Source of the DNA: an uncultured Bacteroidales bacterium
Lineage (GTDB): Bacteria > Bacteroidota > Bacteroidia > Bacteroidales > Bacteroidaceae
Direction: 5' to 3'
Assembly: GCA_902778625.1 (NCBI GenBank)
Contig: CACYYM010000001.1
Location: 62,001-126,000, forward strand
Length of the DNA stretch: 64,000 bases
The position numbers and the translations under genes were made by a program. Below, in pieces: positions 8,421 through 59,239 of this stretch; position 1 is the stretch's first letter; every line of letters begins with the position of its first letter. A model generated the notes under the pieces. It did no database searches, had not been told where the DNA came from, and worked only from the letters and a program-made list of their open reading frames with translations.

Positions 8421-8513
8421 AACGCCGCGTGCGGCGTTGGCAATTTCCGCGTGCGGCGATGGCAATCTCCGCGTGCGGCGTTTGAAATCTCCGCAGGCGG
8501 CGTTTGAAATTCC
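8421..8513. repeat. 22-bp-pitch palindrome array A (GC-rich)
   Basis: Four palindromes start at 8425, 8447, 8469 and 8491, each exactly 22 bp after the last. Three are CCGCGTGCGG and the fourth is CCGCAGGCGG. The 12-bp spacers are also similar (for example CGATGGCAATCT and CGTTTGAAATCT). The array fills the gap between the convergent QueG-like and PHP genes. Confidence 0.93.
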
Positions 8514-14881: not shown

Positions 14882-14962
14882 CGTGGTTAAAATAAAAACT
14901 TAACACGTTAAAATGCCTAACTTAACACGTTAAAATGATCAACTTAACACGTTAAAATTTGA
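14882..14962. repeat. 22-bp-pitch array AT-1
   Basis: Three near-identical 22-bp units begin at 14897, 14919 and 14941 (shared part AACTTAACACGTTAAAA), preceded by a partial unit. The centres CGTG/CACG lie at 14882, 14904, 14926 and 14948, exactly 22 bp apart. Each core is TAAC-AC-GTTA, a palindrome around AC, the same architecture as the GC-rich arrays. Confidence 0.92.
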
Positions 14963-20310: not shown

Positions 20311-20411
20311 AACGCCGCGTGCGGCGTTGGCCATTTCCGCGTGCGGGGATTGCCATCGCCGCACGCGGCGTTTGAAATCCCCCTGCACGGGGTTGAAATT
20401 CACCGTAGCGG
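20311..20411. repeat. 22-bp-pitch palindrome array B (GC-rich)
   Basis: Palindromes start at 20315, 20337 and 20359 (CCGCGTGCGG twice, then CCGCACGCGG). Decayed members CCCTGCACGG and CCGTAGCGG follow at 20381 and 20403. All are 22 bp apart. The array lies between the DUF2027 promoter and the metallopeptidase terminator. Confidence 0.92.
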
Positions 20412-25055: not shown

Positions 25056-25205
25056 GCTCTATTTCTTACCGAATCCATTAAGATAATCAACCTGCCAGCG
25101 CAGTTCTGTTGCAAACATCATACCATTTCGAAACCTTCTTGTGCAAAAATAAGCAATTAAGCAACATTTTTCGACCGAAGGGGGGGTGTTGTGTGCAAGA
25201 TATCG

Positions 25206-25213
25206 TACCTTTG
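25206..25213 (+). promoter_or_regulatory. -7 box of GH115 gene
   Basis: TACCTTTG, 24 bp before the ATG at 25238. Confidence 0.65.
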
Positions 25214-25237
25214 CACAAAACCTTTAATATATATGGT

Positions 25238-28200
25238 ATGAATGCTAGACGCTCTCTTTTGGCAGCAATCTGCCTGATGGTTTCCTTCCTGGGCACCAAT
25301 GCCGACGAACTGCAGGTCGTAACTTCGCCTGTCGATGGTTGTTTTGCGATTGCCGGTTCGACAACTGCAGACAAAGCCATCGTCCTTTACGATGACCAGG
25401 ATGCTGAGGTTGTGAAGACGGTCATCGATTGTCTTCTTTCCGACCTCAAAGCAGTCACCAAGAAGACTTTTACGAAGTACAAGACGGGACCGACGACTCT
25501 GAAGAACCCCATCATCGTCGGTACAATCGGGCAGTCGAGCCACATCGACGGGCTGATTGCAGACGGCAAGATCGACGTGAGCGATGTCGAAGGCAAATGG
25601 GAAGCATTCGGCATGCAAGTCATCGACAACCCGATGGAAGGCGTAGCAAAAGCGCTCGTCATCTTTGGTTCGCAACCTCGTGCAACTGCGTACGGCATGC
25701 TTGAACTGAGCCGTATGGCAGGCGTGTCGCCTTGGATATGGTGGGCAGATGTCGCACCAGCCACAAAGACACAGCTCTACGTGACGCCCGGCCGCCGTGT
25801 CTTCGGCTCGCCATCGGTCAAGTTCCGCGGCATCTTCCTTAACGACGAGGACTTCGGCCTGCGTCCTTGGGCAGCGAAGAAGATGGACACGAACCTCAAC
25901 AACTTCGGTCCCAAGACCTACGCCGCCATTATGGAGCTGCTGCTGCGCCTTCGTGCCAACACACTATGGCCGGCAATGCATGCAGGCTCGCGTGCCTTCT
26001 GGTTCGAGAAGACAAACATCCCGCTCATCATGAAGTACGACATCTACATGGGCAGCAGCCACTGCGAGCAAATGCTGCGCGACAATGAGTACGAGTGGGG
26101 AAAGACAGGCGACAAGTTCGGCGGGCATGGCAACGACGACTGGGTGTGGAAGACGAACAAGGACATGATAAAGCGCTACTGGGCAGAGCGCGTGGGCGAG
26201 AGCCGCGGCAAGAACGCCATCTACACGCTCGGCATGCGTGGCGTTCACGACACGGGCATCAACGGCTATAGCAACACGGCAGAACGCGTGGCTGCTTTGA
26301 CAGAGATTATTGCCTACCAGCGTCAGCTCCTTGCCGACAGCATTGGCGACCCGACCACCATCCCGCAGATCTTCATTCCCTACAAGGAAGTGCTCGACTG
26401 CTACAACGCAGGCCTGCAAGTGCCCGACGACGTCACGCTGATGTGGGTGGACGACAATCACGGCTACATACGCCAGATGCCGAACCCCGCAGAGCAGGCT
26501 CGCTCGGGCGGCAACGCTGTTTACTATCACCTCTCCTATTGGGGCAGCCCCGACTCTTACCTGTGGCTGAGCAGCATTTCGCCTTCCCTTTGCAGCTACG
26601 AGCTGAGCAAAGGCTATGCACAAGGCATTCGCGACCAATGGATAATCAACGTGGGCGACATCAAGCCTGCAGAGGAGGAACTCGAGTTCTGCATGGATCT
26701 GGCTTGGGACATCAACAGCTGGACGCCGGAACGTGCCCATCTCTACACGCGCGACTGGGCAGCACGAACGTTTGGCGAAGAGTTTGCCGACGAGATAAAC
26801 GAGATAAAGATGGCGTACTATCGTCTTTGCATTGCTGCCAAGCCTGAGCACGTCCAGCTTTGTCACTTTGACCACTCGAATGCACAGATTGATGCGCGTA
26901 TTGCAGAGTATCAGGAACTGTACGACAAAGCTGCTGCAATGCGTTCGCGCATGCCTTCCTCGCTTCGTGATGCTTATTACCAGCTCATCGAATATCCCGT
27001 TCGCGCCAGCGCCGACATGAACATCAAGTTGCTCCGTTCGCGCCAGAGCTTTGTCTATGCTTGGGCAGGTCAGGGCGAGAAGGCGCTCACATATTCAGCA
27101 GCAGCGCAGAACGCTTTCAACGAAATCATCACGCTTACAAACAAATACAACGCCGGCTTCCTGAATGGCGGCAAATGGCAAGGTATGATGGATTACAAGC
27201 CAAACAACTGGACGCAGCACCTCATGCCTTCCGTCGCAACGGCGGACGATGTGGCAGAACAAGAGAGCAGCATCCTCGAGCCCAACGTTACCATCATCGC
27301 CGGAGGCAGCTACGACAACGCATCCTCGACGGTTAAGACGCTGGAAGGGCTCGGCATCCGAGGCACCACAGCTACCGTTTGGCCGCTCGACATGCAGGCT
27401 TACACGTCTGCCAGCTCAGCGCCCTATGCCGAATACACCTTGCCCGTGAAGGAAGGACTCAACGTCATACAAGCCCGTTGCCTGCCAACGTTCCGCCTTA
27501 ACAACGATTACGACATCCGCATAGGCATCTCCGTCAACGGCGGCACAGCGAAGGTCATCTCCATCAAACAAACGGAGCGAACCGAGTCGTGGGACGAGAC
27601 GGTGGCATTAGGCTACATTCCCGCAGGCGTTCATTACACGAGCACAGAGAACAAAACGGTCAGCGTGCGTGTCTCCTTTATGGACCCGGGCCTCTGCGTC
27701 AGCGCTTTGGCAAGCATTCCATTCAGTGCCGGAACGGAAGACCTGACGAGCCTCTTGACCAATCCCGACTTTGAGTATGGCGGCACAGGCGGCACTCTGA
27801 ATCCGCAAGGAGGCTTGATTCGTGGTGTGCCTAAAGGTTGGAAAGCAACAAATATCAGCAACGGCAACTCTTGGGGCGTGAACCAAGATGCCAAGCATCT
27901 CTGGGGCATCAACGTCTTCTGGGCAAGCGGGAAACCTATGCCAAACACCTACGAGCTCTCGCAAACCATTGCTGCATCGAAGCTCGGCGCAGGCACATAC
28001 CTCGTCACCTGCTTGCTCGGCGTGCAGAAAGACAAGATGGCGAACTGCCGACTCTTTGCCAACAAGAACGTTCAGTACTATGGGAAAGAGAGCGATTACC
28101 TTGCGTCGATGCTCACGTCGAGCGAGACAAACACCTTCGCAGGCTATGGTCCGTCCGGTGCTGGCAAGATGACCTTGCGGCCGATGGCTGTGATGGTGAC

Positions 28201-28519
28201 GCTCAAGGACGGCGAGAGCCTGAAGCTCGGCATTCGCACCAGCAACTTCAAGGCCGACGGAACACGAAGCACCAGCGACAGTCACGGCTGGTTCAAAGTG
28301 GACCACTTCCGCCTGCAACGCATCGACGCAAAGGACGATGCAGACGGAATCATCGACCTTAAAGACCTTAAAGACCTTAAGGACCTTAGAGACCTTAAGG
28401 ACTTTAACGTCCAATACTACGACCTCAAGGGGCAAGCGGTCCCTTTTGGCGTAACGCGTCAGGGCGGCATCTTCATCATGCGTCGTCCTGACGGCAGCGT
28501 CGTCAAACTCGCAAAGTAG
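25238..28519 (+). CDS. GH115 alpha-glucuronidase
   Basis: A 1093-residue secreted protein, with signal peptide MNARRSLLAAICLMVSFLGTNA from the ATG at 25238. The glyco_hydro_115 core is clear: FRGIFLNDEDFGLRPWA (about 192-208), GMRGVHDTGINGY, MWVDDNHGYIRQMPNP, YYHLSYWGSPDSYLW and MDLAWDINSWTPE. GH115 enzymes release (4-O-methyl)glucuronic acid from xylan and related polymers. A C-terminal beta-rich region follows, then six copies of a GACCTTAAR 9-mer encoding KDLKDLKDLRDLKD, then a tail ending in YDLKGQ...VVKLAK that resembles Bacteroidetes C-terminal sorting-type tails. It probably acts with the GH88-DUF2264 enzyme on uronic-acid side chains. Confidence 0.92.
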   Translation: MNARRSLLAAICLMVSFLGTNADELQVVTSPVDGCFAIAGSTTADKAIVLYDDQDAEVVKTVIDCLLSDLKAVTKKTFTKYKTGPTTLKNPIIVGTIGQSSHIDGLIADGKIDVSDVEGKWEAFGMQVIDNPMEGVAKALVIFGSQPRATAYGMLELSRMAGVSPWIWWADVAPATKTQLYVTPGRRVFGSPSVKFRGIFLNDEDFGLRPWAAKKMDTNLNNFGPKTYAAIMELLLRLRANTLWPAMHAGSRAFWFEKTNIPLIMKYDIYMGSSHCEQMLRDNEYEWGKTGDKFGGHGNDDWVWKTNKDMIKRYWAERVGESRGKNAIYTLGMRGVHDTGINGYSNTAERVAALTEIIAYQRQLLADSIGDPTTIPQIFIPYKEVLDCYNAGLQVPDDVTLMWVDDNHGYIRQMPNPAEQARSGGNAVYYHLSYWGSPDSYLWLSSISPSLCSYELSKGYAQGIRDQWIINVGDIKPAEEELEFCMDLAWDINSWTPERAHLYTRDWAARTFGEEFADEINEIKMAYYRLCIAAKPEHVQLCHFDHSNAQIDARIAEYQELYDKAAAMRSRMPSSLRDAYYQLIEYPVRASADMNIKLLRSRQSFVYAWAGQGEKALTYSAAAQNAFNEIITLTNKYNAGFLNGGKWQGMMDYKPNNWTQHLMPSVATADDVAEQESSILEPNVTIIAGGSYDNASSTVKTLEGLGIRGTTATVWPLDMQAYTSASSAPYAEYTLPVKEGLNVIQARCLPTFRLNNDYDIRIGISVNGGTAKVISIKQTERTESWDETVALGYIPAGVHYTSTENKTVSVRVSFMDPGLCVSALASIPFSAGTEDLTSLLTNPDFEYGGTGGTLNPQGGLIRGVPKGWKATNISNGNSWGVNQDAKHLWGINVFWASGKPMPNTYELSQTIAASKLGAGTYLVTCLLGVQKDKMANCRLFANKNVQYYGKESDYLASMLTSSETNTFAGYGPSGAGKMTLRPMAVMVTLKDGESLKLGIRTSNFKADGTRSTSDSHGWFKVDHFRLQRIDAKDDADGIIDLKDLKDLKDLRDLKDFNVQYYDLKGQAVPFGVTRQGGIFIMRRPDGSVVKLAK
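28355..28408. repeat. 9-bp GACCTTAAR repeat, six copies, in GH115 gene
   Basis: Units start at 28355, 28364, 28373, 28382, 28391 and 28400. They encode a charged LKD repeat just before the C-terminal tail. The same unit occurs between mutL and trpS at 44669-44711. Confidence 0.9.
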
Positions 28520-28570
28520 CAAAAATCGCCCATTCCATCGATAAAACGACTCATTTTTATAAAGGGAACC

Positions 28571-28805
28571 AACCCTTTTCGTTAAGAGAATCAACCCTTT
28601 TTACGGGCCGAAACAATCAACCCCACATGCCGAACAAAGTGCTTCGGCATGTGGGGTTTCTCATTACCGCACGCGGGGTTCGTTATACATACATGTATCT
28701 ACAATTATACATACATGTACATTTAATTATAGATACATGTATGTATAACGAACTCGACACGCGAAGTTGAGTGGCACAGCATGTGAAGTCGAATGATTCG
28801 ACGTG
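28571..28805. repeat. 22-bp-pitch mixed-arm array G
   Basis: Nine centres of the form C-purine/pyrimidine-G stand at 28626, 28648, 28670, 28692, 28714, 28736, 28758, 28780 and 28802, each exactly 22 bp apart: CATG, CATG, CACG, CATG, CATG, CATG, CACG, CATG, CGTG. Arms differ: 28667 is CCGCACGCGG, and three consecutive units are ATACATGTAT or ATACATGTAC. An AACCCTTTT direct repeat at 28571 and 28593 also has 22-bp spacing. The array fills the gap between the convergent GH115 and HhH genes. Confidence 0.92.
28621..28660 (+). terminator. Hairpin after GH115 gene
   Basis: A perfect 14-bp inverted repeat (28621-28634 with 28643-28656) has an 8-nt loop, followed by TTTCTC. It lies 100 bp after the GH115 stop and is built from the first two units of array G. 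The T-tract is short, so termination is plausible rather than certain. Confidence 0.6.
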
Positions 28806-28818
28806 TGGCGACGGCTGA

Positions 28819-29733
28819 CTACTCGAATGAAATGTAGGGACGGAGCCTGTCGAGGTCGGTGGCTTTAAAGTATTTGAGGTGCGACAGCTCGTCGATGGAT
28901 TGGAGTTCTCCCTTGTTCTGGCGGTGCTCCCAAATGACTTCGGCCTGATAGAAAGAGAGGTACGGATGCTTCATCATCTGCTGGACCGAGAGCTTGTTGA
29001 CGTTTATCTTTGTCGGCTCGACGGGCGAAACGGTCATGTATTTCAGGACGGAATCGGGCAGTTCTATGGCTTCCATGGCCTGTTCGACCTTGACGAAGCC
29101 ACCGAGCTGCCTGCGGTAAGCCACGATTCGGGCTGCCCGTTTGGTGCCGATGCCGGGTATCATCTTCAGCTGCGAAGTGTCGGCCAAGTTGATGTCGATG
29201 GTCTGGCCGAAGGCTATCTTTGGCTGTTTTGGGAAAGAATCCTCGTGGACTTCTTCCGCTTCGCGTCTCTCGGCTTCTTGGGCCTGCCATCGCTCTTCCT
29301 CGACGGAAACGGCTGACTCGACATATTGGTACTCCGTGCTGATCCGGATATAAGGCCGCAGGCGTTCCCATTGCTCGTTGGTGAGGTGGGGCACATTCAT
29401 GAAGTCCTCGGGTTTGCTGTATCGTCCGTGCTTTGCCCTATAGCGATAAATGCTCCGAACCTGCCATTTGGAAAGTCCCAAGCGAAGCAAGGTTGTAGAG
29501 TCCGCCACGTTTGGATCGAAAGGGAAGGACTCGACGGCCTCTTCCTTTTCTGCATAAACGAAAGGTTTTGCCGGCTTGCTCAACCACTCGCGCCTTTCTT
29601 CCTCTTCTTCGGTGACGTCCCTGGGAGTCTGCCACTTCCAGATGGAATAGCCCACGATGCCAAGGAGCAGCACCCATTCGAGCGCAAGCAAGGCTCGTCG
29701 TTGGCGGGGAGTCAGAGTCGGAAGGCGTTTCAT
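28819..29733 (-). CDS. Helix-hairpin-helix protein, ComEA-related
   Basis: A 304-residue protein with one N-terminal membrane helix (about 12-34, LLALEWVLLLGIVGYSIWKW) and helix-hairpin-helix DNA-binding repeats. These are DSTTLLRLGLSKWQVRSIYRY (about 77-97), then DTSQLKMIPGIGTKRAARIV with the classic PGIG hairpin, SVQQMMKHPYLSFYQAEVI, and SIDELSHLKYFKATDLDRL. Membrane-anchored HhH proteins of the ComEA type hold incoming DNA during uptake, so it may act with dprA, but this is inferred from the family. Its ATG overlaps the stop of the transporter gene upstream by 4 bp. Confidence 0.88.
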   Translation of the reverse strand: MKRLPTLTPRQRRALLALEWVLLLGIVGYSIWKWQTPRDVTEEEEERREWLSKPAKPFVYAEKEEAVESFPFDPNVADSTTLLRLGLSKWQVRSIYRYRAKHGRYSKPEDFMNVPHLTNEQWERLRPYIRISTEYQYVESAVSVEEERWQAQEAERREAEEVHEDSFPKQPKIAFGQTIDINLADTSQLKMIPGIGTKRAARIVAYRRQLGGFVKVEQAMEAIELPDSVLKYMTVSPVEPTKINVNKLSVQQMMKHPYLSFYQAEVIWEHRQNKGELQSIDELSHLKYFKATDLDRLRPYISFE

Positions 29734-33748: not shown

Positions 33749-33846
33749 CCGCCAGGGGAAGTTTCAAACGCCGCGTGCGGGGATTGCCATTTCCGCGTGC
33801 GGGGATTGCCATCGCCGCACGCGGCGTTTTATTTCCCCCTTAAGGG
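33749..33846. repeat. 22-bp-pitch palindrome array C (GC-rich)
   Basis: Units at 33749 (CCGCCAGGGG), 33771, 33793 (both CCGCGTGCGG), 33815 (CCGCACGCGG) and 33837 (CCCTTAAGGG) are all 22 bp apart. The last keeps a palindrome but with a new centre. It lies between the VanX-like promoter region and the GH76 stop. Confidence 0.92.
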
Positions 33847-39942: not shown

Positions 39943-40036
39943 GCAAAAATAATCGTACTAACAAGCGTTTCGCTGTTAAAAAATGTACAACATGGTGCGT
40001 TTTTTCTATTTACCCTGTATGAGAGCATAAAAAACG

Positions 40037-40111
40037 TCGCATGCGGAAATTAAAACGCCGCACGCGGGGATTGCCATCGCCGCACGCGGAGATTGCCAAC
40101 GCCGCACGCGG
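40037..40111. repeat. 22-bp-pitch palindrome array D (GC-rich)
   Basis: Units at 40037 (TCGCATGCGG), 40058, 40080 and 40102 (CCGCACGCGG three times); steps are 21, 22 and 22 bp. It lies in the 323-bp gap between the Gfo/Idh promoter and the terminator of the small-protein gene. I see no gene in that gap. Confidence 0.92.
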
Positions 40112-44660: not shown

Positions 44661-44668
44661 TATTATAA

Positions 44669-44711
44669 GGACTTTATGGACTTTAAGGACCTTAGGGACC
44701 TTAAGGTCTTA
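44669..44711. repeat. 9-bp GGACYTTAN repeat between mutL and trpS
   Basis: About five tandem 9-mers from 44669 (GGACTTTAT, GGACTTTAA, GGACCTTAG, GGACCTTAA, then a partial unit). The last overlaps the mutL stop codon. The unit matches the repeat inside the GH115 gene. Confidence 0.9.
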
Positions 44712-53087: not shown

Positions 53088-53162
53088 CCGCAGGCGGCGA
53101 TTTAATTTCCGCGTGCGGCGATGGCAATCCCCGCACGCGGCGTTGGTCATCCCCGCACGCGG
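53088..53162. repeat. 22-bp-pitch palindrome array E (GC-rich)
   Basis: Units at 53088 (CCGCAGGCGG), 53109 (CCGCGTGCGG), 53131 and 53153 (CCGCACGCGG); steps are 21, 22 and 22 bp. It lies between the divergent guaB and iron-sulfur protein genes, between their promoters. No gene is seen in this 371-bp gap. Confidence 0.93.
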
Positions 53163-53245
53163 CGTTTTTTACCCCCGAAAAACAAAAATATGCCTCTGCA
53201 CAAAAAAAATTGCAGACTTTTGCAGGAGCATTCACCATTTATTAG

Positions 53246-59037: not shown

Positions 59038-59117
59038 CAGGCAAGTACTTCCGTAGCCCCCATTTTACCCATTCTGTCCATCAAACTCATCTTTCCCATT
59101 TAGCCCCCCAAAAAACG

Positions 59118-59192
59118 CCGCACGCGGAAATTGCAATCGCCGCACGCGGGGATGGCCAACGCCGCACGCGGGGATTGAAACGCCGCCTGCGG
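59118..59192. repeat. 22-bp-pitch palindrome array F (GC-rich)
   Basis: Units at 59118, 59140 and 59162 (CCGCACGCGG) and 59183 (CCGCCTGCGG); steps are 22, 22 and 21 bp. It lies between two co-directional genes. Confidence 0.93.
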
Positions 59193-59239
59193 GGATAATT
59201 TTTACCCCGAACGAAACAAGCAAACATAAACCCAAAAAA

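Follow-up and report, generated by a model that had tools for sequence, protein, structure and literature searches.

Within the 64,000-nucleotide stretch of DNA analysed here (the window), a GH115 family gene (25109–28519, forward strand) and a gene for a helix-hairpin-helix (HhH) protein (28819–29733, reverse strand) converge on an intergenic array. The array is a 22-bp lattice of nine units (28617–28814), whose CRYG centres lie at 28626 + 22k (k = 0 to 8): CATG at 28626 and 28648, CACG at 28670, CATG at 28692, 28714, 28736, CACG at 28758, CATG at 28780 and CGTG at 28802. The exact 22-bp pitch of these nine centres is as originally described; the start of the array, placed earlier at 28571, was corrected to about 28617. 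The earlier coordinates begin in a different, two-copy 22-bp repeat, AAYCAACCCTTTT (28567–28600), which has no CRYG centre. Repeats of 9 and 18 bp (GACCTTAAA / TAAGGACCT) were also noticed at 28355–28407 and at 44666–44710; those at the first site lie inside the GH115 gene, where they encode a repetitive peptide close to the C-terminal end, and those at the second site are intergenic.

Against the nine consecutive centres observed, dinucleotide shuffling of the gap (2000 rounds) yields at most three and shuffling of the whole window (200 rounds) at most four, and the gap has no CRYG chain of three or more at any other spacing from 10 to 39 bp tested. Chance, or an artefact of assembly or masking, might be suspected given that the genome sequence is a draft (39 contigs, 89% complete) and that the relatives compared below are nearly all metagenome assemblies. 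However, the shuffles never approach the observed runs and the same period is found in independent assemblies of many species; this explanation is refuted and we give it practically no weight.

The nine centres are not independent of each other. Units 1 and 2 form a single hairpin, AACCCCACATGCCGAA...TTCGGCATGTGGGGTT (28619–28658), with a stem of 16 bp, in which 22 bp separate the two CATG centres and the dyad is of a second type, displaced by 11 bp from the CRYG dyad (the +11 dyad). Unit 3 (28661–28682) is the GC-rich unit ACCGCACGCGGGGTT, of a family common to the other arrays of the window. Units 4–6 are the AT-rich core (3 × 22 bp, 28683–28748) of a CATG cassette at 28678–28753, whose borders are GTTCG...CGAAC. 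In units 7–9 (28749–28814) the arms are unrelated and the register is kept (TCGA-CACG-CGAA, ACAG-CATG-TGAA and TCGA-CGTG-TGGC). Because units 1–2 are one hairpin and units 4–6 one 66-bp cassette, the nine units represent about six independent placements.

GC-rich 22-bp arrays are also located at 8425–8510 (a convergent gap), 20313–20372, 33769–33818, 40033–40111, 53115–53177 (a divergent gap) and 59113–59196, and a TTAA-CACG-TTAA array at 14886–14958 provides the window's third arm family. In several related species, the gap orthologous to that at 33769–33818 contains arrays that differ in sequence. Over 446 kb of this genome, 71 CRYG chains (at least three centres at 22-bp steps) were found, a count that includes some arrays read again in the CGCG frame. 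In the autocorrelation of intergenic CRYG tetramers, lag 22 has 192 pairs and lag 44 has 121, with most other lags in single digits; highs at lags 20, 24, 42 and 46 are due mainly to CGCG within CGCACGCGG. With exact CCGCRYGCGG and TACATGTA masked, 71 pairs are left at lag 22 (background roughly 5) and 51 at lag 44. The 22-bp peak thus persists without these copies, and the original prediction withstood the autocorrelation test that had been set for its refutation. Among 16 tetramer classes in the intergenic DNA of this genome, CRYG is the best phased, at 24.5 times background for lag 22 as against 8.7 for the next class. The proposal that the GC-rich and AT-rich families belong to one class was borne out and can be widened, as these two and many more arm families share the 22-bp register, often adjacent and in phase. 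The GC-unit pair pattern also has five matches in viral contigs.

What is conserved in a unit apart from its centre? The 89 units of this genome that lie outside the GC-rich and AT-rich families have the consensus YMAAYTYARCRYGYTRARTTKR, in which a second dyad, GTTKRYMAAC (GTT-N4-AAC), is positioned 11 bp from the CRYG dyad. The idea that the centre and the register alone are conserved goes too far, as the GTT/AAC border around the +11 dyad is also kept in this genome. Arm complementarity exceeds a shuffled-partner control (z = 5.1 when every unit is counted, 2.1 when each array contributes one). Past the last GC-rich unit of an array, dyad strength peaks at 21–22, 32–33, 43–44, 54, 65 and 76 bp, and these peaks persist where the next unit belongs to a non-GC family. 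The units repeat every 22 bp and the dyads about every 11 bp. The polarity of the CACG and CGTG centres has no clear sense-strand bias (74 versus 60 units; 22 versus 15 arrays). When the AAC/GTT consensus pattern was searched in 121 genomes of the family, which include just six species of the same genus and none of the closest relatives, this genome was the sole match.

GTT and AAC boxes within imperfect palindromes are also features of integron attC sites, and the arrays are similar to attC in both respects. They differ in that their pitch is much too short and there are no cassettes of the integron kind; the best integron integrase match in this genome scores 75 bits against a cut-off of 265, and integron-type recombination was rejected.

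The CATG cassette is a dispersed family, with 88 unit pairs of at most three mismatches in the genome and borders of the form GTTCR...YGAAC across its copies. For most of the cassettes examined, the flanking units in register carry different arms; the centres of these flanking units are mostly CRYG, the others being CNNG-like or degenerate. Genome-wide, 24 cassette ends are followed by N4-CRYG, a count that covers CRYG-followed ends only, and none of the 24 ends listed belongs to a kb-sized element. Of the features of a MITE, inverted-repeat termini and near-identical dispersed copies are present in the CATG cassette only, and the dinucleotides at its borders are not exact duplicates. Several other species (G005, G027, G020, L028, L037 and L039) have three-unit CATG cassettes of their own, at positions partly common with those of this genome, and the sequence changes in them are symmetric across both arms (TATA to TGCA).

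The gap 3′ of the HhH orthologue, which was used to locate the corresponding position in other species, contains a 22-bp array in most of the named relatives (rumen and gut Prevotellaceae or Bacteroidaceae), often of unrelated sequence; one relative has hardly any gap here. L021, L037 and L022 share the same array after the HhH gene, at about five, four and two units, respectively. In pairwise comparisons of gaps between this genome and five related species, an array was present in both in 31 cases, in this genome only in 8, in the other only in 5 and in neither in 161. For 54 of 69 pairs of arrays in the same gap, alignment of the two members does not exceed the 95% level set by arrays taken from different gaps. 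One register accommodates different unit families, and a given gap retains an array whose sequence is replaced from one species to the next.

The differences in length between orthologous gaps favour multiples of 22 bp, as the original prediction had suggested should be checked, with a mean cosine of 0.58 for 56 non-independent array pairs versus 0.12 for 150 arrayless pairs. One orthologous gap in six species has lengths of 8, 52, 52, 52, 74 and 96; this series is of an AT-rich array of another unit type, lacking CRYG, and supplies several of the cosine pairs. The repeat concerned, AT-rich CAAATCGTAAATAGTAAATCGT with a 22-bp step and no CRYG, is found at G000:C1:79265-79317 and in the orthologous gaps. 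Both units and three-unit cassettes come and go by steps of 22 bp. A whole array can also be missing from the gap of a species (110 bp versus 12 bp), so that the array is dispensable in that gap.

The period is genus-wide. In stretches from 36 species of the same genus, the commonest period reported by Tandem Repeats Finder is 22 bp (40 rows), followed by 15 and 21 bp with 12 rows each. The sequences of the 22-bp units vary by species, for example TTGCTTGTACATGTACAAGCAA, GAGTCCATGTGCGTGGACTCAA and AAGACGCGCGTCTTACAGCTGA. A motif-free scan gives lag-22 densities per Mb of 132 in this genome, 46 in the genus (slightly favoured, since the stretches G003, G016 and G027 were chosen for matches to the CRYG pattern), 20 in other genera of the family and 0 in E. 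coli; the order-level control amounts to 80 kb. Lags 20 and 23 give 0–2, and lag 21 gives 32 in the genus and 13 in other genera of the family. Coding repeats and AT-rich 7-bp repeats probably contribute to the lag-21 signal, which makes 22 bp the safer claim. Intergenic repeats of 21 or 22 bp with other sequences were seen in other genera of the family (for example L181 15638–15680, L180 9063–9105 and L183 170–226) and suggest that the period extends beyond the genus; a 22-bp dyad repeat, AACGTTCTTGCAAGAACCAAGC, was seen outside the family, in L100 near 11633 (G047, from another family of the order).

Elsewhere in the genus the unit centres are often not CRYG (CCGG, CCAG, CGCG, CTAG and others), and even in this genome a CACG centre can correspond to CCTG when the orthologous unit within one and the same array is compared. 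It had been proposed that whatever maintains the arrays reads the centre and the spacing rather than the arms. The spacing part of this proposal agrees with the persistence of pitch and dyad symmetry across species; a reading of the centre is not supported, as the centre drifts like the arms.

The arrays prefer the 3′ ends of genes. In this genome, where genes were called with a simple codon-usage script that may miss small ones, arrays occupy 16 of the 25 convergent gaps, 41 of the 139 tandem gaps and 7 of the 29 divergent gaps, and the arrays in tandem gaps are closer to the upstream stop in 31 cases and to the downstream start in 10. The bias recurs in close relatives (gaps of 60–400 bp: 14 of 24 convergent, 20 of 81 tandem, 1 of 25 divergent) and in the remainder of the genus (10 of 32, 5 of 133 and 2 of 32, respectively). 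Such a position could be that of tandem RNA hairpins that terminate or protect transcripts in the manner of bidirectional terminators or REP stem-loops. In keeping with this, the RNA of the GH115/HhH gap folds strongly (z = −10.9), and a few array ends are terminator-like: 8421–8438 (−), 33813–33826 (+) and 28619–28658 (−). However, a GC-rich stem followed by a T-tract fits few arrays and not the arrays in general, many units having neither perfect stems nor T-tracts, and the two 20-kb stretches scanned hold no more terminator-like sites than shuffles do. There is no pairing bias at the RNA level, because G-T (79) and A-C (82) mismatches between the sense-strand arms in tandem gaps are about equal, and RNA hairpins would not require a 22-bp pitch. 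A search of the window against Rfam gave a tRNA as its sole match. Selection at the RNA level was rejected on the mismatch and terminator counts, and we regard RNA-level elements as an unlikely account of the arrays.

REP and BIME elements are short high-copy palindromes, often clustered, that lie 3′ of coding regions in convergent and unidirectional gaps, and some REP families are species-specific; G-U pairing has been cited in REP work as support for a function as RNA (Di Nocera et al. 2013, PMC3733652). The arrays described here are likewise made of many-copy short intergenic palindromic units that favour convergent gaps and the 3′ ends of genes. Unlike REPs, their unit consensus has no GTAG or CGTC tag (the source covers these two superfamilies only), their pitch is constant at 22 bp with several unrelated unit families in one register, they have no G-U pairing bias and no RAYT was found in the genome. 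The arrays thus resemble REP/BIME in place and symmetry, yet they are not a REP.

Dispersed palindromic elements replicated within a genome are also described as REPINs, which need a RAYT (Y1_Tnp) according to the available text of the reports (PMC3116915, PMC2817692). Neither RAYT/Y1_Tnp nor IS200/IS605 was found in this genome (89% complete), and strong Y1 matches are present in just a few of 61 genomes of the genus and absent from several array-rich ones; mobilisation by RAYT was rejected. Another relevant element is the BrickBuilt MITE of Porphyromonas gingivalis, from another Bacteroidales genus, which the accessible portion of the source describes as 23-nt tandem units, intergenic only, of one sequence family with a leader, a tail and inverted-repeat ends (19 copies in ATCC 33277; PMC4596501). 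The difference is that a pitch kept across unrelated sequences is a feature of the arrays here, and that portion of the source gives no evidence of it for BrickBuilt. A search of the literature on 22-bp arrays in the Prevotella-like group returned nothing matching.

A further explanation would be a DNA-wrapping signal for gyrase or an HU-like protein, in which bendability in helical phase, and so periodicity alone, matters. It would account for a conservation that is specific to the period and independent of sequence at convergent 3′ ends, where supercoils collect, and E. coli REPs have been reported as gyrase targets (PMC3733652). Across 107 units from the genus, however, the 11-bp harmonic of GC/AT alternation is depleted (z = −3.9), as is that of purines (z = −2.5). 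Gyrase- or nucleosome-like wrapping was rejected on the depleted GC/AT harmonic, and a wrapping signal in general seems quite improbable.

Two readings then have to be weighed more closely. First, we tentatively favour, at a little less than an even chance, a BIME-like palindrome lattice at gene 3′ ends, genome-wide and genus-wide, which is handled as DNA and whose pitch and symmetry outlive its sequence. Second, the arrays may be a selfish or passive repeat derived from one ancestral 22-bp palindrome, spread by slippage and in-phase insertion of cassettes, with the pitch merely inherited; we consider this possible but less probable. Unit identity is 0.81 within an array and 0.59 between arrays, as simple tandem duplication would give, which supports the passive repeat and counts against the lattice. 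The dispersed CATG cassette with its near-identical copies, the shared array of about five, four and two units in three species and the orthologous gaps without arrays also speak for the passive repeat. The strongest objection to a passive repeat is that dissimilar units, and mostly unalignable arrays in the same gap, keep the 22 bp and the dyads. Drift should accumulate spacings of 21 and 23 bp between dissimilar units, but CRYG pairs with dissimilar flanks number 28 at lag 22, only 3 at lag 21 and 2 at lag 23 (11 at lags 20, 24 and 27). Moreover, unrelated units are joined in phase, and searches of this genome for RAYT, IS200/IS605 and integron integrase found none. Three other points count against the palindrome lattice: a species may lack the whole array in a gap, the palindromy of some arrays is weak (the best dyad averages 6.5 of 11, versus 5.3 when shuffled), and two turns of B-DNA are slightly shorter than 22 bp.

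On the palindrome-lattice reading, a putative symmetric (dimeric) DNA-binding or DNA-processing protein would handle the lattice as DNA, occupying it once per two helical turns and tolerating large base changes. Such occupancy, or an enzyme that copies units in phase, could keep the pitch and the symmetry while the letters drift. The likely use would be at the ends of transcription units, for example in insulating convergent genes or in fixing nucleoid structure. A broader claim, that what is inherited as information is the pitch and the dyad phase and not the letters, and that a putative protein or in-phase enzyme maintains the arrays throughout the family while unit sequences and their centres are replaced in one species after another, is conceivable but doubtful.

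Known intergenic palindromes (REP, BIME, REPIN and MITE) are recognised by their sequence. Here the letters are largely replaced between species while the spacing and the mirror symmetry stay, which suggests that the spacing is read more than the sequence. That both are kept at the same places over many species despite the turnover of sequence is not usual in DNA to which a protein binds or which a protein copies. A factor that reads the pitch, if there is one, would represent a new type of chromosome-organising or repeat-copying factor in bacteria; if there is none, the arrays would offer a clean natural example, in bacteria, of a satellite-like repeat whose length is fixed.
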